Source of the DNA: Vulgatibacter incomptus
GTDB lineage: Bacteria; Myxococcota; Myxococcia; Myxococcales; Vulgatibacteraceae
Assembly (NCBI RefSeq): GCF_001263175.1
Contig: NZ_CP012332.1
Location: 552,001-616,000, forward strand
Direction: 5' to 3'
DNA length: 64,000 bases
Numbering within the stretch: position 1 is the first letter of the stretch; each line of letters begins with the position of its first letter. Below, one piece after another: positions 26,652 through 40,421 of the stretch. The translations under genes and the position numbers were made by a program. The notes below the pieces were generated by a model. That model worked only from the letters and a program-made list of their open reading frames with translations, had not been told where the DNA came from and did not search any database.

Positions 26652-26705
26652 GCGTGTGCGACCCGTCGGATGGCCGCCTGAGGCAGCCGGTGGAACGGGC
26701 ACAAA

Positions 26706-26734
26706 TAGTGCCCGAGCGAATCGTGCGCTACACT
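26706..26734 (+). promoter_or_regulatory. Array promoter 1 (drives 26809 and probably 27415)
   Basis: TAGTGC (26706-26711), a 17-base spacer containing GAGCGAATC, and TACACT (26729-26734) lie 74 bases before the start codon. Two further copies with nearly the same spacer stand before the third and fourth array genes. Confidence 0.65.
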
Positions 26735-26759
26735 ACACCTTCTCGGCCCGCGGTGTCGG

Positions 26760-26776
26760 CGCGTACGAGTGACGCG
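26760..26776 (+). promoter_or_regulatory. Leader hairpin of array gene 1
   Basis: CGCGT / ACGCG with a 7-base loop lies just upstream of the ribosome site. Hairpins at the matching position but with different stem sequences occur before array genes 2 and 3. Confidence 0.35.
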
Positions 26777-26808
26777 TCGCACAAACCGGAGGCTGGAGGG
26801 GAGGGCAC

Positions 26809-27342
26809 GTGGTCCGGTCGTTCGCGGTCGCCGTCGGAGCCGTAGTCGTCTTCTTCGCGTCCGTGGCGGGGGCGAAGTGTGGGGCACCTTGCGGTGATTA
26901 CCTCTGTCCGCAGGGGAGGGCCGCGCGGGCGTTTTCGGCCACAGTGACCGACGTGTCGGAGCGTGGGATGACCCTGCGGGTCGATGACACCTTCGGCTCG
27001 GTTGGCGTAAGCGAAGGGGACGAGCTGGATGAGAGATCGTACGGAGCCGTCCTCGGCGATCGGTACTTCGTCATCGTGGGGACTGACTCTGACCAGCATT
27101 TGATGCCCATCTACGAGGCCGGCCAGGTGCACTGCGTCGACGCGATGGTCCCTCTCGAACGCGCCGCATCGATCGCCCTCGCGCCGAGTTGCTACGACGA
27201 GGCACTGAAGGATGGTCTCATGCCCAAGTGCGACGACTGGGCCGGCTGCTCCTCGGGAGGCGGCGGCCCCGCCATCCTTACGGTTGGCGCCGCGGCGGCC
27301 CTCTTCGCTGCCCTCCGCTCGAGGCGGCGTAACCTGGCGTAG
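26809..27342 (+). CDS. Array protein 1 (subtype 1), MYXO-CTERM-like tail
   Basis: The 177-residue product has a Sec signal peptide ending S-V-A-G-A. Its body carries the family core 'ATVTDVS...MTLRVDDTFG', a G-D-E segment and 'GDRYFVIV'. The tail is C-S-S-G-G-G-G, a short hydrophobic helix and R-S-R-R-R. That tail has the three parts of a MYXO-CTERM sorting signal (Cys motif, membrane helix, Arg cluster). Subtype 1 also has the early C-x-x-x-C-G-x-Y-L-C-P cluster and a Cys after the core, suggesting disulfides. The start is GTG, chosen by alignment with its four paralogues and the GGAGGGGAGGG ribosome site. Function unknown; expected at the outer surface. Confidence 0.82.
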   Translation: MVRSFAVAVGAVVVFFASVAGAKCGAPCGDYLCPQGRAARAFSATVTDVSERGMTLRVDDTFGSVGVSEGDELDERSYGAVLGDRYFVIVGTDSDQHLMPIYEAGQVHCVDAMVPLERAASIALAPSCYDEALKDGLMPKCDDWAGCSSGGGGPAILTVGAAAALFAALRSRRRNLA

Positions 27343-27362
27343 CCGGTCGCGACGGCGGTGTC

Positions 27363-27384
27363 GTCGCGCCACAGGTGACGCGAC
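27363..27384 (+). promoter_or_regulatory. Leader hairpin of array gene 2
   Basis: GTCGCG / CGCGAC with a 10-base loop lies between genes 1 and 2. No -35/-10 pair of the array type precedes this gene, so it is probably read from promoter 1. Confidence 0.35.
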
Positions 27385-27414
27385 ACATCAGTCGGAGGCT
27401 GGAGGGGAGAGAAC

Positions 27415-28011
27415 ATGATCCGCTCGTTCGCCATAGCCGTGGGAGCCGTAGTCGTCTTCTTCGCGTCCGTGGCGGGGGCGGACTGCGCCCCTTCCATAGG
27501 CGAGGACCTCTGTCCCCCCGGTGGCGTCGCGCAGGCGTTCCTCGCCACCGTAACCGATGTGTCAATGGATGCGTTCCTTCGGGTCGATGCGTTGACCCTT
27601 CGGGTCGACGACAGCTTCGGCTCCGACTTCGGAGAATCCGTGGAAATGGACACCCGTCCGCGGCTGATACCCGACAGAGTTGGTCTCGGCGATCGGGTCC
27701 TCGTCATCGTGGCGTCCAAGGGCCGACCGCAGGCGCCCTGGGCGCTGATCCACGTCGACGAGGCCGGGATGGTCCATTTCTGGGGGGAACGCGCGACACT
27801 TCCGGCCGAACGGGCCGCGTCGATCGCCGTCTCGCCGAATTGCTACGCAGAGGCGAACACGGAAGCGCCCACGCCTGAGTGCCTCGACGATACCGTCACC
27901 ACCTCCACGAACAGCTGCTCGTCGGGAGGAGGCGCCCCCGGCATCCTCTCGGCTGGCGCTGCGATGGCCCTCCTCGCCGCCCTACGCTCGAGGCGTCGCG
28001 TCACCGCGTAG
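27415..28011 (+). CDS. Array protein 2 (subtype 2), MYXO-CTERM-like tail
   Basis: The 198-residue product has the same signal peptide and tail as its neighbours (C-S-S-G-G-G-A-P, helix, R-S-R-R-R). The centre differs: it has G-E-S-V-E-M-D-T-R-P in place of G-D-E, an added D-R-V-G-L-G-D-R-V-L-V-I-V block, and lacks two of the early cysteines and the mid-protein Cys. Protein 4 shares all these features, defining subtype 2. The ATG has GGAGGGGAGAG upstream and the gap to gene 1 is 72 bases. A G6A run at 27782-27788 is out of slippery phase and the frame is intact. Confidence 0.82.
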   Translation: MIRSFAIAVGAVVVFFASVAGADCAPSIGEDLCPPGGVAQAFLATVTDVSMDAFLRVDALTLRVDDSFGSDFGESVEMDTRPRLIPDRVGLGDRVLVIVASKGRPQAPWALIHVDEAGMVHFWGERATLPAERAASIAVSPNCYAEANTEAPTPECLDDTVTTSTNSCSSGGGAPGILSAGAAMALLAALRSRRRVTA

Positions 28012-28045
28012 TCGATTGGCAGTGTTTCCGGCGCCCGGGCGGAAC

Positions 28046-28074
28046 TAGTGCCAGGGCGAATCGTCGGCTACACT
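28046..28074 (+). promoter_or_regulatory. Array promoter 2 (drives 28147)
   Basis: TAGTGC (28046-28051), a 17-base spacer with GGGCGAATC, and TACACT (28069-28074) lie 72 bases before the ATG at 28147. Confidence 0.65.
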
Positions 28075-28095
28075 TCATGTTCTCGGCCTCGCGGT

Positions 28096-28117
28096 GTCGT
28101 CGCACACGTGGGACGAC
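28096..28117 (+). promoter_or_regulatory. Leader hairpin of array gene 3
   Basis: GTCGTC / GACGAC with a 10-base loop sits at the same place in the leader as the hairpins of genes 1 and 2, with a different stem sequence. Confidence 0.35.
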
Positions 28118-28146
28118 GCGCAATTCGAGGCCGGAGGGGAGAGCAC

Positions 28147-28686
28147 ATGGTCCGGTCGATCGCAGTCGCTGTGGGAGCCGTAGTCGTCTTCTCCGCGTCA
28201 GTGGCAGGGGCAACAGACTGTGTGCCACCCTGCGGCTGGGACGTCTGCCCGCCGGCGGGCGTCGATCAGGCGTACCTGGCCACGGTGACCGACGTCTCGT
28301 CGCACGGGATGACCCTGCGGGTCGATGACACCTTCGGCTCGTTTGGCGTACGCGAAGGGGACGAGATATTCGTGGGACCGGACGGAACCGTTGGCGATCG
28401 GTACTTCGTCGTCGTGGATGTCAATTCTCGCCCGCAGAGGCTGCGCGTGGACGGCGCCGGCCTCGTCCACCTTTGCGGGGGATATGAAAGGATTCCGGTC
28501 GAACGGGCGGCGTCGATCGCCCTCGCGTCGAATTGCTACGAAGAGGCAAAGAAGGAGGGGCTGATGGCCGAGTGCCCCGATGGAAGCGGCTGCTCCTCGG
28601 GAAGCGGTGGCCCGGCCGTCCTCACGGCTGGCGCCGTGGCTGCCCTCTTCGCCGCCCTCCGCTCGCGGCGTCGCATGATCCCGTAG
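28147..28686 (+). CDS. Array protein 3 (subtype 1), MYXO-CTERM-like tail
   Basis: The 179-residue product is the closest match to protein 1. It shares the C-V-P-P-C-G-W-D-V-C-P cluster, 'ATVTDVSSHGMTLRVDDTFG', an E-G-D-E segment, 'GDRYFVVV', and V-H-L-C in the middle. The tail is C-S-S-G-S-G-G-P, a hydrophobic helix and R-S-R-R-R. The frame is open for 33 codons upstream; the ATG at 28147 is set by the paralogue alignment and the GGAGGGGAGAG ribosome site. It has its own array-type promoter. Confidence 0.83.
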   Translation: MVRSIAVAVGAVVVFSASVAGATDCVPPCGWDVCPPAGVDQAYLATVTDVSSHGMTLRVDDTFGSFGVREGDEIFVGPDGTVGDRYFVVVDVNSRPQRLRVDGAGLVHLCGGYERIPVERAASIALASNCYEEAKKEGLMAECPDGSGCSSGSGGPAVLTAGAVAALFAALRSRRRMIP

Positions 28687-28803
28687 CCGACTCGCGGCCA
28701 TGTCTCGCCGCACCCGGGCGGGCGCTCATCGTTTGGCCGGGCTGCGGCGGTCGTCCGCGCCTCTTCCGGCCGCCTACGGAGACGACGCTCCGCTCGGGCA
28801 GAA

Positions 28804-28832
28804 TTGTGACCGAGCGAATCATCGGCTACGCT
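28804..28832 (+). promoter_or_regulatory. Array promoter 3 (drives 28907 and probably 29548)
   Basis: TTGTGA (28804-28809), a 17-base spacer with GAGCGAATC, and TACGCT (28827-28832) lie 74 bases before the ATG at 28907. The rest of the 28687-28906 gap holds nothing else I can support. Confidence 0.65.
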
Positions 28833-28906
28833 TGACCGTGTCGGCCTCGCAGTGTCGTCGCGTATGGGGACGCTTCGCATGACTCGAGGCTGGAAGGGGA
28901 GGGAAC

Positions 28907-29482
28907 ATGGTTCGCTCGTTCGCCGTCGCAGTGGGAGCCGTAGTCGTCTTCTTTGCGTCCGTGGCGGGGGCGCAATGCCTTCCTTCCATCGACTATGAGC
29001 TCTGTCCCCCGGGAGGCGTCGCGCGGCCGTTCCTGGCCACCGTGACCGCGGTGTCGGCGGATGGGTTGACCCTCCGGGTCGACGACCGTTTCGGCTCGGA
29101 GGGCGTCGGAGAATCGGTCGAGGTGAATACCCGGCCGGACATGTCACCCGACCGAGTCGGTCTCGGCGATCGGCTCCTCGTCATTCTGGCGGCCGACCGC
29201 GAACCGCAGGCGCCCTGGGCGCTGATGCGCGTCGACGACGCCGGAGTGGTCCATTTTGTGGGGGAACGCGCGGAGATCTCGGTCGAACGCGCCGCGTCGA
29301 TCGCCCTCTCGCCGGATTGCATCGATCAGGCGACCACGGAAGTGCCCGTCAAGGAGTGCCGCGATATGATCGCCGTCACCACCTGCTCTTCGGGAGGAGG
29401 AGGCGCGCCCGCCATCCTCACGGTCGGCGCCGTGGTGGCCCTCTTCGCCTCCCTCCGCTCACGGCGGCGCGTCAACGAGTAG
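28907..29482 (+). CDS. Array protein 4 (subtype 2), MYXO-CTERM-like tail
   Basis: The 191-residue product pairs with protein 2. Both have the early S-I-x-x-x-L-C-P-P-G-G-V-A, then G-E-S-V-E-x-x-T-R-P, a D-R-V-G-L-G-D-R block and 'PQAPWAL'. The tail is C-S-S-G-G-G-G-A-P, helix, R-S-R-R-R. The signal peptide is almost identical in sequence to that of protein 1, pointing to recent duplication or gene conversion. AAGGGGAGGG precedes the ATG. Confidence 0.83.
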   Translation: MVRSFAVAVGAVVVFFASVAGAQCLPSIDYELCPPGGVARPFLATVTAVSADGLTLRVDDRFGSEGVGESVEVNTRPDMSPDRVGLGDRLLVILAADREPQAPWALMRVDDAGVVHFVGERAEISVERAASIALSPDCIDQATTEVPVKECRDMIAVTTCSSGGGGAPAILTVGAVVALFASLRSRRRVNE

Positions 29483-29547
29483 CCGACTCGCGCTGCCGTC
29501 GCGCACGAGTGACACGACCTATGTTTCGAGGCTGCAGGGGAGAGCAC

Positions 29548-30114
29548 ATGGTCCGGTCGTTCGCCGTCGCTGTGGGAGCCGCAGTCGTTTCCTTTGCGTC
29601 CGTGGCGAGGGCGGACTGTGTGCCACCTTGCGGGAGCTACCTCTGCCCGTCCCCCGGGGTCGCGCAGGCCCTCCTGGTCACAGTGATCGAGGTCACCGAC
29701 GATTCGACCACCCTGCGGGTGGATGACACGTTCGGCTCGGACGGGGCTCGCGAGGGAGACGAATTGAGCGTGGAGCGATGGCAGGCGCCTATGGCCGAGC
29801 CTCGAAGCCGGTTCTACTTCGCCGTGCCGGCCCCGAGCGGGAGGTGGAACCCAGGTTCCCTGCTGCCGGTCGACGAGTCCGGCCAGGTCCGGTGTGAAGG
29901 CGGAAGGACGATCCCTCTCGAACGCGCCGCCGCCATGAGTCTCTCGGCGAACTGCGAACGGGAGGCGGCGGAGGAAGGGCTCATGCCGGAATGCCACGAC
30001 GTGATTTCCGCCGTCGGCTGCTCGTCGTGGGGCGGCGACCCCGCCGTTCTCCCGGTCGGCGCCGTGGCGGCGCTTCTCGCTGCTCTCCGCCTCCGGCGGC
30101 GCGCCATCGCTTAG
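29548..30114 (+). CDS. Array protein 5 (subtype 1, divergent), MYXO-CTERM-like tail
   Basis: The 188-residue product keeps the subtype 1 cluster C-V-P-P-C-G-S-Y-L-C-P, the core 'TTLRVDDTFG' and V-R-C. The strand after the core is replaced by an unrelated stretch around 'WQAPMAEPRSRFYF'. The tail also drifts: C-S-S-W-G-G-D-P, helix, R-L-R-R-R. The gap to gene 4 is only 65 bases and lacks an array promoter, so it is probably co-transcribed with gene 4. The ATG at 29548 is placed by the alignment and CAGGGGAGAG. Confidence 0.8.
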   Translation: MVRSFAVAVGAAVVSFASVARADCVPPCGSYLCPSPGVAQALLVTVIEVTDDSTTLRVDDTFGSDGAREGDELSVERWQAPMAEPRSRFYFAVPAPSGRWNPGSLLPVDESGQVRCEGGRTIPLERAAAMSLSANCEREAAEEGLMPECHDVISAVGCSSWGGDPAVLPVGAVAALLAALRLRRRAIA

Positions 30115-30237: not shown

Positions 30238-31917
30238 TCAGGGCGCTTCGTGGATCCAGAGGAAGAAGGGATCTGGCACCGGCGGCCCGTGCTCGAAGAC
30301 CCACACGCTGTAGCGGCCGGAGGCGGGCGCCGTCAGCACCATCCGAGGACATCCGCCCACTCCGCTCCTCATGTCCGAGTCGATCGGGCGGATGGAGGGA
30401 TCGTAGAGGTTGACGTAGGGCGGCGTCGGGGGTGGCCCGGGCGGCTGATGGCACTCGTAGGGAGCGCCCATGAAGAGATCGATGAGGTAGGAGTGTCCGG
30501 CCTCCGCTTGGAATGAGTAGACGAGCGCCTGTTGATTGAGGGATCGGGTGACCCACCGGCCGACCGGTACCGTCACGCCGAACGGCGCGCTCTGTTCCTG
30601 GTTGTTCGTGTCGAAGAACTCGATCTGGCAGGTGGCGCTGCAGCCCGAGCCGATGGAGGCGCCCCGGTCGTCGCAGGTCTCCGGCGGGTCGATGATGCCG
30701 TCGCCGCAGGTGATCAGGTGGCAGCTGCCGCCACGGGGCGGGCACGCGTAGCCCGGCTCCAGCCTGCACGTCGCGGAGCAGCCGTCCCCGTTCACGAGGT
30801 TTCCGTCGTCACATTCTTCGCCGGCGCCCCGGAGTCCGTCGCCGCAGACGTTCGCGGTGCAGAGTCGGCCCGGAACGGCGCAGGTGAATCCAGGCTCGAT
30901 CGTCTTGCAGTCTGCGCTGCAGCCATCGCCGCCCACATGGTTGCCGTCGTCGCAGGCTTCGGTCGGGCCCACGATGCCGTCGCCGCACCGATCCTTGGTG
31001 AAGACGATGACCGACGGGGCGGCGGTCCACGGCTGGCCATTTCGCGTGGAGGCCACGATCACGAGGAGCTGGCCGGGTTGGATCACGAGGTCCTGGACGT
31101 CGGGGTGAAAGGTGTCTCCCGATCCAACGTCACCTTCGAGGCAGTTCGAGGTCGGAGCCCAGGGATCGAAGGGGAAGCGGTAGGCGAGGAGCAGGCCGCT
31201 GTTGCTGTCGGCGAAGGTCGCGCGAGCATGGATGCGCTGGGCGAATCCCGTCGCGTTCACGATCGGGAAGGCCAGGAACAGGTCCGTCGAATCGGAATCC
31301 GGCAGACAGTCGCTGCCCGCGCGGCCCCACCAGTCCGGGCTTCGTGCCGTGGTCAGTGCGATGGATCCGCCGGGATTCGCGATCGGCTGGCCTTCCCAGG
31401 TGCACGTAGAGGAGCATCCGTCGCCCGACCGCGTGTTGCCGTCGTCGCATTCCTCTCCGGGATCGACGACCCCGTCGCCGCAGGAATGGCCGCCGCCCGT
31501 GCCGCCGGTGCCTGCCGTTCCGCCGCTGCCGCCCGTGCCGTCGTCGCCGGCCGTTCCGCCGATTCCGCCCGTGCCGTCGTCGCCGGCCGTTCCGCCGTTT
31601 CCGCCCGTGCCGTCGCTGCCGGCCGTTCCGCCGTTGCCGCCCGTGCCGTCGCTTCCGGCTGTTCCGCCGTTGCCGCCCGTGCCGTCGCTGCCGGCCGTTC
31701 CGCCGTTGCCGCCCGTGCCGTCGCTTCCGGCTGTGCCACCGCTGCCGCCCGTGCCGTCGCTGCCGGCCGTGCCGCCGCTGCCCGCCGTGCCACCGCTTCC
31801 GCCGGTGTTGGTGAGGCCGGGATCGTTCTGGCTGGTTCCGCACGCCGTCGCGCCGAGCAGCGCGACGGCCAGGATCAGGGTACCTCGCGTGAATGACGTC
31901 GACGCCTCCTGTTTCAT
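30238..31917 (-). CDS. Lipoprotein with Gly-rich linker and Myxococcus-type Cys-rich repeats
   Basis: The 559-residue product has a signal peptide with lipobox G-A-T-A-C and about 100 residues of 12-residue linker repeats (type GGTAGSDGTGGN). Four to five cysteine-rich units follow, of the form C-G-D-G-x-x-x-P-x-E-x-C-D-D-G-N-x-x-x-G-D-G-C-S. This is the DUF4215/myxobacterial disulfide repeat, found in exported myxobacterial proteins. Between the first and second repeats lies a beta-rich domain (residues about 165-255), and another ends the protein (from about residue 420). I chose the ATG at 31917 as the start of the signal peptide; the ribosome site is weak. Probably an adhesin-like surface protein. 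Confidence 0.87.
   Translation of the reverse strand: MKQEASTSFTRGTLILAVALLGATACGTSQNDPGLTNTGGSGGTAGSGGTAGSDGTGGSGGTAGSDGTGGNGGTAGSDGTGGNGGTAGSDGTGGNGGTAGSDGTGGNGGTAGDDGTGGIGGTAGDDGTGGSGGTAGTGGTGGGHSCGDGVVDPGEECDDGNTRSGDGCSSTCTWEGQPIANPGGSIALTTARSPDWWGRAGSDCLPDSDSTDLFLAFPIVNATGFAQRIHARATFADSNSGLLLAYRFPFDPWAPTSNCLEGDVGSGDTFHPDVQDLVIQPGQLLVIVASTRNGQPWTAAPSVIVFTKDRCGDGIVGPTEACDDGNHVGGDGCSADCKTIEPGFTCAVPGRLCTANVCGDGLRGAGEECDDGNLVNGDGCSATCRLEPGYACPPRGGSCHLITCGDGIIDPPETCDDRGASIGSGCSATCQIEFFDTNNQEQSAPFGVTVPVGRWVTRSLNQQALVYSFQAEAGHSYLIDLFMGAPYECHQPPGPPPTPPYVNLYDPSIRPIDSDMRSGVGGCPRMVLTAPASGRYSVWVFEHGPPVPDPFFLWIHEAP
31500..31803 (-). repeat. 36-bp tandem repeat coding for the lipoprotein linker, with 72-bp higher-order period
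   Basis: About eight 12-codon units repeat in frame. Two synonymous variants of the unit, one with CTGCCGGCC and one with CTTCCGGCT on the plus strand, alternate at least twice, giving a 72-bp super-unit. This suggests that the linker grew by duplication of unit pairs. Confidence 0.8.
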
Positions 31918-32060
31918 GAGCGAGGCGTCGAAGCGTATTTTCGGTTTCCGTCCGTTGTGAAGTCGCCACCCTCGGCAAATGTCCGCTGGTGGACAGATTC
32001 GAGAGCCCGAGACGTCAAGCGACGCGAGACGGGGTCGTGCGAAGGGGCGACGGGTCGGGC

Positions 32061-32867
32061 TCAGACCTCGGGCTTGGTGACCCGGAAGACGATCCACGGC
32101 GGGAGGAGGAGCCTCTCGAAGCCGACGAGGCCAACCTCGTCACAGAGCCGGCGTAGCTCCGCCTCCTCGAAGCGGCGGATGCCCACCTTGCGCTCCAGGC
32201 GGTCGAGGGGCTTGAGGCCCTCGAGAAGCGTGGCGCAGACGAAGGCGCCGCCCGGCGCGAGGGTACGGGCCACCTCGGCGAGGACCTGCGAGGGCTCGTC
32301 GTAGAGGTGCAGCGCGGCGACGTCGAGGACGCCGGCGAAGACCTCGTCGCGGAAGGGGAGGTGTGCGGCGTCGGCGCGGATGAGCTCGACGGTGGCGCCG
32401 CTCTCGCTGAGCTGGTGGTGGGCCTCCTCGAGCATCGCCGCGGAGCGATCGAGGCCGAAGACCGGGCCGGCGCCGGGTCGCATGGCGAGGTCGCGGGCGA
32501 GATGGCCGGTGCCGCACGAGAGGTCGAGGAGCGGCGCGCCCGGTGGTGGCGCGAGGAGGGCCCGGGCGAGGAAGCGCTCGCTCTCCGCGTCGAGGGAGAG
32601 GCGGGAGAGGGCGGGCCGCAGGCCGCGCTCGTAGAAGCGGGCGACCGGCCGGAGCTCCATGGCCCGCTGGGCGAGGGAGCGGCGCAGCGGAGGTGCGTGA
32701 TCCGGCGGCACGAGGAGGTCGAGGATCCCCTCGGCGAGGGGGTAGGCCATGTGGCAGGTGGCGCACCGGACGGGGCCGAAGCCCAGGAGCGCCTTGTCGC
32801 CTTCGGCCTCGAGGGGCCCGCCGCCGCATCGGGGGCAGCGGAGCAGGGCGAGGGAGGAACGTCTCAC
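32061..32867 (-). CDS. SAM-dependent methyltransferase with N-terminal zinc ribbon
   Basis: The 268-residue class I methyltransferase begins with a zinc-ribbon-like C-P-R-C plus C-A-T-C pair (residues about 11-38), as in RlmA and Trm112-linked enzymes. The SAM-binding motif I is L-D-L-S-C-G-T-G-H-L-A, followed by a D-R-S-A-A-M-L helix and 'DAAHLPFRDEVFAGVLDV'. The zinc ribbon suggests an rRNA or small-molecule substrate; neither can be chosen here. It runs on the same strand as the repeat lipoprotein, with 143 bases between them. Confidence 0.85.
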   Translation of the reverse strand: MRRSSLALLRCPRCGGGPLEAEGDKALLGFGPVRCATCHMAYPLAEGILDLLVPPDHAPPLRRSLAQRAMELRPVARFYERGLRPALSRLSLDAESERFLARALLAPPPGAPLLDLSCGTGHLARDLAMRPGAGPVFGLDRSAAMLEEAHHQLSESGATVELIRADAAHLPFRDEVFAGVLDVAALHLYDEPSQVLAEVARTLAPGGAFVCATLLEGLKPLDRLERKVGIRRFEEAELRRLCDEVGLVGFERLLLPPWIVFRVTKPEV

Positions 32868-39705: not shown

Positions 39706-40421
39706 GCGAGGCGCGCGTCCGCCTGGGAGGGGCCGGGCGCGCGGAGTTTGGACGCCAGGTCGATCGCCCTCACGACGAGGGCGGTCGCTCCATCCGCGGA
39801 CTCCGGGAGGACGTGCAACAGGCGATCGGAGCGCTCGGCGCTGGACGCGAAGCAGCTGTCCGGAGGAGGACCGGCGATCGGAAACGGAGGCAGCGCGAAG
39901 CCGAGGCTGGCGAAGAACGCCACCAGCTCGGCCGCGGGCCCGCTCGCGACCTTCCAGGGCCCGCAAAGCAGGAAGGAAGCCACCTTGTTTCGGATGAGCT
40001 GGACCTGATCGACCTCTAGCGCGTGGCGAATGCAACCCAGCCGCTTCATGAAGCGGTCGAGCGGCTCGGCGAGGGCGCCGTCGTCCACCACGGAGGAGAT
40101 CACCACGACGTCCGCCCAGTCGACGAGCCGATCGTAGACGGGGCCGAGCTCGTCGCCCTCTCCTTCGGTCAGGAGACAAGGCCACCGACACTGGCGCTCG
40201 TTCGAGGGGCAGCCCTCGAAGCGAAGGGCGGTGAGGTCGACCCGCCGGATCTCGGCCCCGGAGGCCTCGGCTGCCTGCAACGCCAGATCGAGCAAGAGCC
40301 TCGCCGACGAATGCTGCCCCGGCGGCGTCGCACCGGCACTTAATCCAAGAACTCGAACGAGTGGCTCGCCCGAGCCGCGGACTTCCGTTAGCCTGTCGCC
40401 GACGCGGTGCAGCTTCACCAT
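39702..40421 (-). CDS. NADPH-dependent FMN reductase-like (flavodoxin-fold) protein
   Basis: The 239-residue product has a first strand and loop 'VRVLGLSAGATPPGQHSSA' of the phosphate-binding type used by FMN_red proteins. A Cys-rich segment follows (F-E-G-C-P-S-N-E-R-Q-C-R-W-P-C) and 'WADVVVISSVVDDGAL'. It may reduce or bind a flavin; the Cys segment could bind a metal or be redox-active. It is convergent with the kinase-like gene and divergent from the XRE regulator, sharing its 100-base promoter region. Confidence 0.6.
   Translation of the reverse strand: MVKLHRVGDRLTEVRGSGEPLVRVLGLSAGATPPGQHSSARLLLDLALQAAEASGAEIRRVDLTALRFEGCPSNERQCRWPCLLTEGEGDELGPVYDRLVDWADVVVISSVVDDGALAEPLDRFMKRLGCIRHALEVDQVQLIRNKVASFLLCGPWKVASGPAAELVAFFASLGFALPPFPIAGPPPDSCFASSAERSDRLLHVLPESADGATALVVRAIDLASKLRAPGPSQADARLA

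Follow-up and report, generated by a model that had tools for sequence, protein, structure and literature searches.

TraA of Myxococcus xanthus carries a MYXO-CTERM tail that is cut by the myxosortase MrtX in a Cys-dependent manner, and its surface display proceeds via type II secretion (PMC11980579). Much of the cargo of this recently proven myxosortase pathway is without known function. A second point of reference for what follows is the NTR module, the fold of the netrin, complement C345C and TIMP (tissue inhibitor of metalloproteinases) proteins; TIMPs coordinate zinc via the alpha-amino and carbonyl groups of their first residue, which is invariably Cys (PMC8494430). Here we describe a tandem array of five genes, g1 to g5, in a stretch of 64,000 nucleotides from Vulgatibacter incomptus (NCBI RefSeq assembly GCF_001263175.1, contig NZ_CP012332.1, positions 552,001 to 616,000; hereafter the window), the genome being complete and represented by a single 4.35-Mb contig. 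The array adds to the myxosortase cargo a compact family with a predicted fold, and on balance we lean towards reading it as five variants of a surface-anchored, disulfide-stabilised NTR-like binding module, sorted by MrtX.

Architecture of the array

The array comprises five consecutive open reading frames (ORFs) on the plus strand at 26809-30114, all encoding exported paralogues of 177-198 amino acids:

g1, 26809..27342, plus strand: exported protein of 177 amino acids with a predicted NTR-like core and a MYXO-CTERM tail; GTG start; six-cysteine form
g2, 27415..28011, plus strand: 198 amino acids; four-cysteine form, Cys2 and Cys4 absent
g3, 28147..28686, plus strand: 179 amino acids; six-cysteine form; mature core modelled, pLDDT 88
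g4, 28907..29482, plus strand: 191 amino acids; four-cysteine form
g5, 29548..30114, plus strand: 188 amino acids; six-cysteine form; oldest copy of the array (core Ks, i.e. synonymous divergence, 0.87-1.09 to the others; reciprocal match from a relative of another family)

The start of g3 is an ATG internal to a longer, mechanically called ORF, and a purine-rich GGGGAG stretch resembling a ribosome-binding site lies 5' of each of the five genes. In the alignment, whole-protein identity of g1 to g2-g5 is 55-63%, and the mature cores are 37-65% identical between pairs. The signal peptides are near-identical, the strand T-L-R-V-D-D-x-F-G-S is invariant and the C-termini share the form CSS-x(n)-hydrophobic-RxRRR. 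In these points the ORFs and the alignment agree with an earlier note on this DNA, which had described five same-strand exported paralogues with near-identical signal peptides, an LRVDDxFG core, CSS tails and Arg-rich ends.

Probable sorting tags and sorting machinery

A signal peptide, a Cys motif, a hydrophobic stretch and an Arg-rich C-terminus are combined in all five proteins (alignment by eye). The tails were compared with the models TIGR03901 and TIGR03382, whose curated cut-offs are 20 and 15.85 bits, respectively:

g1 tail, 27244..27339, plus strand: MYXO-CTERM; TIGR03382 16.6 bits (passes 15.85), TIGR03901 18.3 bits (below 20)
g2 tail, 27916..28008, plus strand: MYXO-CTERM-like; TIGR03901 18.0 bits (below 20)
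g3 tail, 28591..28683, plus strand: MYXO-CTERM; TIGR03901 20.1 bits (passes 20)
g4 tail, 29384..29479, plus strand: MYXO-CTERM-like; TIGR03901 15.4 bits (below 20)
g5 tail, 30019..30111, plus strand: MYXO-CTERM-like, the weakest, with the motif GCSSWGG; TIGR03901 7.5 bits (below 20)

The earlier note had seen in these tails a resemblance to the MYXO-CTERM signal together with a departure from it. The resemblance is borne out by g3 and g1, which lie above curated cut-offs; the departure is not supported, g3 scoring 20.1 against 20 for TIGR03901 and g1 16.6 against 15.85 for TIGR03382, with g2, g4 and g5 falling below. Five further proteins of the genome score above the TIGR03901 cut-off. The same note had made the sorting idea depend on a myxosortase in the same genome, and one is indeed present: two CPBP-family proteases are encoded, one of them being MrtX (NF040593, 358 bits against a curated cut-off of 180). 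The genome also encodes the type II secretin GspD (TIGR02517, 581.7 bits against 351). By analogy with TraA, g1-g5 are probably surface-displayed by means of a MYXO-CTERM sorting tag.

Processing as N-terminal lipoproteins (Lgt/LspA) was considered and rejected, the proteins being devoid of a lipobox L-x-[AG]-C: in the array, the first Cys is preceded by D, K or Q. Membership in the MXAN_6652 family (NF041894) was likewise rejected, as its model matches mainly the tail and the best score among g1-g5 is 13.6 bits against a cut-off of 200. The searches also picked up, through its tail alone, a locus (L012, 289-1608) that by eye encodes a CAP/SCP-like domain, a Gly-rich linker and a MYXO-CTERM-like tail.

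Predicted fold and cysteine pattern of the core

As the earlier note had supposed, the core is without a named domain at the sequence level: Pfam gave no credible match to the core of any of g1-g5, NCBIfam recognised mainly the tail and gave no core match, and PDB sequences searched with the array profile returned nothing. The Pfam NTR and TIMP models, specifically, gave no match at E<=10 for g1-g5 or for a sixth copy described below, and the anti-phage defence families of PADLOC gave no match. A match of g4 to potato inhibitor II (E 0.075) was discarded, since it covers 13 residues, is too short and reflects cysteine spacing only.

Structure prediction, which the earlier note had proposed, yielded a confidently modelled core for two paralogues. 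AlphaFold2 modelled the mature core of g3 from eight sequences with a mean pLDDT of 87.7 and a pTM of 0.82, and the core of g4, from window sequences only, with a block pLDDT of about 65-91 over residues 21-150. The g3 model contains an oligonucleotide/oligosaccharide-binding (OB) barrel plus helices; its elements are a short helix located where the N-terminal cysteines cluster, then seven strands and two helices. The best structural matches of both models are mostly NTR modules (complement C345C, hookworm AceES-2, PCOLCE NTR), with agrin NtA also among the best matches of the g4 model, and the NTR alignment takes in the Cys segment and the barrel together with most of the helices; for the g3 model this amounts to about 100 of 129 residues. 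The core is predicted by these models to fold like an NTR (netrin/TIMP/C345C) module, which is a likeness of fold and not proof of descent.

Fifteen of the 17 aligned members of the family (g1, g3, g5 and all 12 other relatives) have six core cysteines in 3+3 order. The first three are found among the first dozen residues of the mature protein, a fourth comes after the V-x-C strand and the last two lie around the region of the terminal helix; beyond the core there is the tag cysteine, which is separate from these (two in some relatives). In g2 and g4 the core cysteines number four, the second N-terminal (Cys2) and the V-x-C cysteine (Cys4) being absent from both. The simplest reading of this pattern is that the six-cysteine core would hold three disulfides and that a Cys2-Cys4 bond would be absent from the g2/g4 type. 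Since g2 and g4 are sisters in the tree (clade support 97/98), the cysteine loss counts as one event, not two. The two subtypes distinguished by the earlier note stand in part: g2 and g4 are a distinct form and a clade, whereas g1, g3 and g5 do not make up a supported clade, and their supposedly extra cysteines are the state common to distant relatives, g2 and g4 being the ones that are without two. Genes 1, 3 and 5 share ancestral features only.

Duplication history and divergence

Core Ks is lowest in the same-subtype pairs (0.40 for g1-g3 and 0.31 for g2-g4) and is 0.87-1.09 for g5 against all others, and the informative core sites favour the pairing (g1,g3)(g2,g4), with a quartet split of 34:4:10. 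One gene-pair duplication beside an older g5 would, on these grounds, explain the 1-2-1-2-1 order, in line with the duplicated two-gene unit suggested before; with g5 as the older copy, the array goes beyond the plain repetition of a single unit. The ratio of non-synonymous to synonymous divergence (Ka/Ks) in g1-g3 and g2-g4, the two closest pairs, is about 0.8 for the core and 0.3-0.5 for the signal peptide and tail. Divergence has thus been quicker in the core than in either the signal peptide or the tail, which is no proof of positive selection. Gene conversion of the signal peptide and tail was also examined, and few informative sites are available there.

Relatives of the array

The search of Myxococcota genomes recommended by the earlier note was carried out with a profile of the array. 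In the same genome it found a sixth paralogue at 39860-40405 (E 3.7e-21), and among 195 Myxococcota genomes one borderline full-length relative, L015. A search from L015 added five more relatives in the family of L015 and matched g5 back (E 7e-4); a 12-sequence profile then gave members in the taxonomic families f4 and f2, among them a pair of neighbouring genes from a single genome. While a scan of GTDB contigs with the array profile gave no relative, a second contig scan, seeded by a relative, gave four loci; the metagenome-assembled genomes (MAGs) concerned carry the labels Archangiaceae, Myxococcaceae, Proteobacteria and Deltaproteobacteria. The sole other genome of the same taxonomic family that was compared (G001) yielded no relative, and the family is missing from most of the 195 Myxococcota genomes. 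The sixth copy and the Myxococcota relatives show the general layout of the array proteins. The core is thus no orphan but belongs, in diverged form, to a broader Myxococcota family. Weak profile matches confined wholly or mostly to C-terminal parts of other proteins (L014, L016, L017, L070-L076) were set aside, as was L018, from which no plausible family member came.

The sixth paralogue (L011; genome ~38.4-41.2 kb) sits between a purL-like coding sequence and duplicated purL fragments. Segments 16-73, 796-931 and 949-983 of L011 recur at 2627-2684, 2685-2820 and 2846-2880 (90-95% and 86% identical). These pieces of the purL-like gene, among them its 3' end and terminator, thus have their second copies ~1.9-2.6 kb away, as if the paralogue had come along with, or inside, a segment in which that gene was partially duplicated. 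The adjacent pair (L059 and L078; G161:C76:4494-5485) is flanked, by eye, by a rho-like gene and a gene for an M50 (RseP-like) protease; in another MAG a relative (L083) also apparently follows a rho-like gene.

Proposed role and alternative explanations

The model we favour was built on computed results (the genes and their tails, MrtX and the secretin, the relatives, the pattern of cysteines, and the predicted fold and the divergence of the core) and on analogy with TraA as far as lipidation, cleavage and surface display are concerned; binding is suggested by fold and divergence only. Sec would export the precursor, signal peptidase would cleave it behind the A-x-A motif, and the mature protein would fold to a disulfide-bonded NTR-type OB barrel, with three disulfides in g1, g3 and g5 and two in g2 and g4. 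The leftover cysteine, in the C-terminal CSS motif, would be the myxosortase site and presumably lipidated; MrtX would take off the C-terminal helix together with the Arg-rich end, and transport to the outer surface would fall to the type II system. Given the faster change of the core compared with the signal peptide and tail, the five proteins may make up a small repertoire of surface modules with different binding faces in a common export and anchoring frame. Putative ligands would be, for example, the surfaces of neighbouring cells, the matrix or proteases.

Several results weigh against this model. The tails of g2, g4 and g5 are under the MYXO-CTERM cut-offs, that of g5 far under. The structural Z values are 5-7.4, a range in which a shared arrangement alone is possible, and Foldseek gave no match at E<=0.001 for either model. 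Ka/Ks of the core is nowhere above 1, and the values for the signal peptide and tail come from few sites. A profile comparison with the Myxococcota TIMP-like proteins, finally, is in order but weak (32% probability, P 5e-4) and suggestive only.

A different explanation, which we find doubtful, is that the proteins are structural or envelope-maintenance surface proteins, copy number meaning dose and not diversity, and that the divergence of the core reflects relaxed constraint after duplication. A core Ka/Ks below 1 would be in keeping with this, as would the dispensability of the family, which follows from its absence from G001 and most of the 195 Myxococcota genomes. However, each of the five genes has an intact frame, signal peptide, tail and LRVDDxFG strand, and the absence of the same two cysteines from g2 and g4, with a loop common to both, looks like a retained alternative form.

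It is unlikely, in our view, that the core is some other OB fold (e.g. a CusF/SilB-like metal-binding or an S1-like barrel), the likeness to NTR modules coming just from the shared barrel. CusF/SilB and S1-type barrels are also found among the structural matches, and no Z reaches 8; yet these align over ~55-81 residues of the barrel, whereas the alignment with NTR domains starts at the N-terminal Cys segment and reaches the C-terminal helices (~100 of 129 residues), and the core has its cysteines at either end in an NTR-like 3+3 arrangement.

Least probable is that g1-g5 are surface protease inhibitors of the TIMP kind, with the free amino group of the first Cys entering a metalloprotease active site, as might be thought from the NTR/TIMP-like predicted fold, the cysteine cluster at the mature N-terminus and the fact that tandem, diverging copies are common among inhibitors. 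TIMPs invariably begin with Cys (PMC8494430), whereas in all 18 family sequences checked one residue (two in g3) precedes Cys1 in the predicted mature protein, cleavage after A-x-A being predicted by eye and pattern. PF00965, moreover, has no match in the array even at E 10, and TIMP identity was rejected on both counts. Proteins of the PF00965 type do exist in Myxococcota and provided the set of TIMP-like proteins used for comparison, in which 17 of 19 have Cys at +1, straight after the A-x-A site. One of them (L081/L087; G182:C18:553756-554112) scores over the PF00965 TIMP cut-off (27.5 against 23.1 bits), has Cys at its predicted mature N-terminus and ends in a Cys-hydrophobic-Arg tail of its own; it is a candidate for a true bacterial TIMP on a surface anchor. 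Nothing relevant on bacterial TIMP/NTR proteins was found in the open-access literature.

The reading of the array as anchored NTR-like binding modules could be extended, in a generalisation that we regard as improbable at present, to the proposal that myxobacteria display tandem sets of NTR-fold proteins on the cell surface as a variable repertoire for recognition or inhibition, the six-Cys and derived four-Cys forms being kept together, independently of the classical TIMP mechanism. Whatever the ligands, the cysteine rule separates the cysteines of the fold (an even number) from that of the sorting tag (one, sometimes two), and the natural variants in one array are a convenient test case for the requirements of myxosortase, as well as for the question of whether NTR-type modules serve bacteria, as they serve animals, for binding at the surface.

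Upstream repeats and neighbouring genes

A block of 45 nucleotides recurs as a direct repeat in three copies, upstream of g1, g3 and g4 only, with the first copy at the beginning of the interval given in the earlier note:

copy 1, 26704..26748, plus strand: TAGTGC-17-TACACT, promoter-like by eye
copy 2, 28044..28088, plus strand: 82% identical to copy 1
copy 3, 28802..28846, plus strand: 78% identical to copy 1; TTGTGA-17-TACGCT by eye

A scan for sigma-70 consensus promoters called no site in the block. If it is a promoter, the units would be g1-g2, g3 and g4-g5. The upstream neighbour of the array, on the opposite strand, is a malic enzyme/phosphotransacetylase fusion, and downstream lie a DUF4215 cysteine-repeat protein and a methyltransferase; these are ordinary neighbours that give no functional clue. 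In the protein adjoining the array (30238-32097, minus strand), a long TGGxGGTAGSDG repeat is accompanied by several cysteine repeats of the DUF4215 type.

Comparison with known systems

With the MYXO-CTERM/MrtX substrates (TIGR03901, TIGR03382; TraA of M. xanthus) the array proteins have in common the signal peptide and a C-terminus made up of Cys motif, hydrophobic helix and Arg-rich end; their genome likewise encodes MrtX and a type II secretion system secretin. They differ in that the motif is of the GCSS type, not GCGC, three of the five tails are below the curated cut-offs, and the cargo is small, single-domain and arranged in tandem. What they share with the MXAN_6652 family is the MYXO-CTERM anchor and a length of ~200 amino acids. 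The Myxococcota TIMP-like proteins are also exported and show a similar strand order in the profile alignment, but start the mature protein with C-x-C and carry the pattern CGY...CSRT, in contrast to X-Cys and C..C(x)C...VxC...C...C in the array family. The NTR/netrin-like domains (C345C of complement C3/C4/C5, PCOLCE, agrin NtA, AceES-2) are resembled by the array proteins in the predicted OB barrel with its N-terminal Cys segment and C-terminal helices and, in g1, g3 and g5, in six cysteines of 3+3 order, whereas the array proteins are bacterial, single-domain and anchored by a sorting tag, with one disulfide apparently absent in two members. The NTR-like fold and MYXO-CTERM cargo are known kinds; the array brings to them a previously unnamed cargo family.

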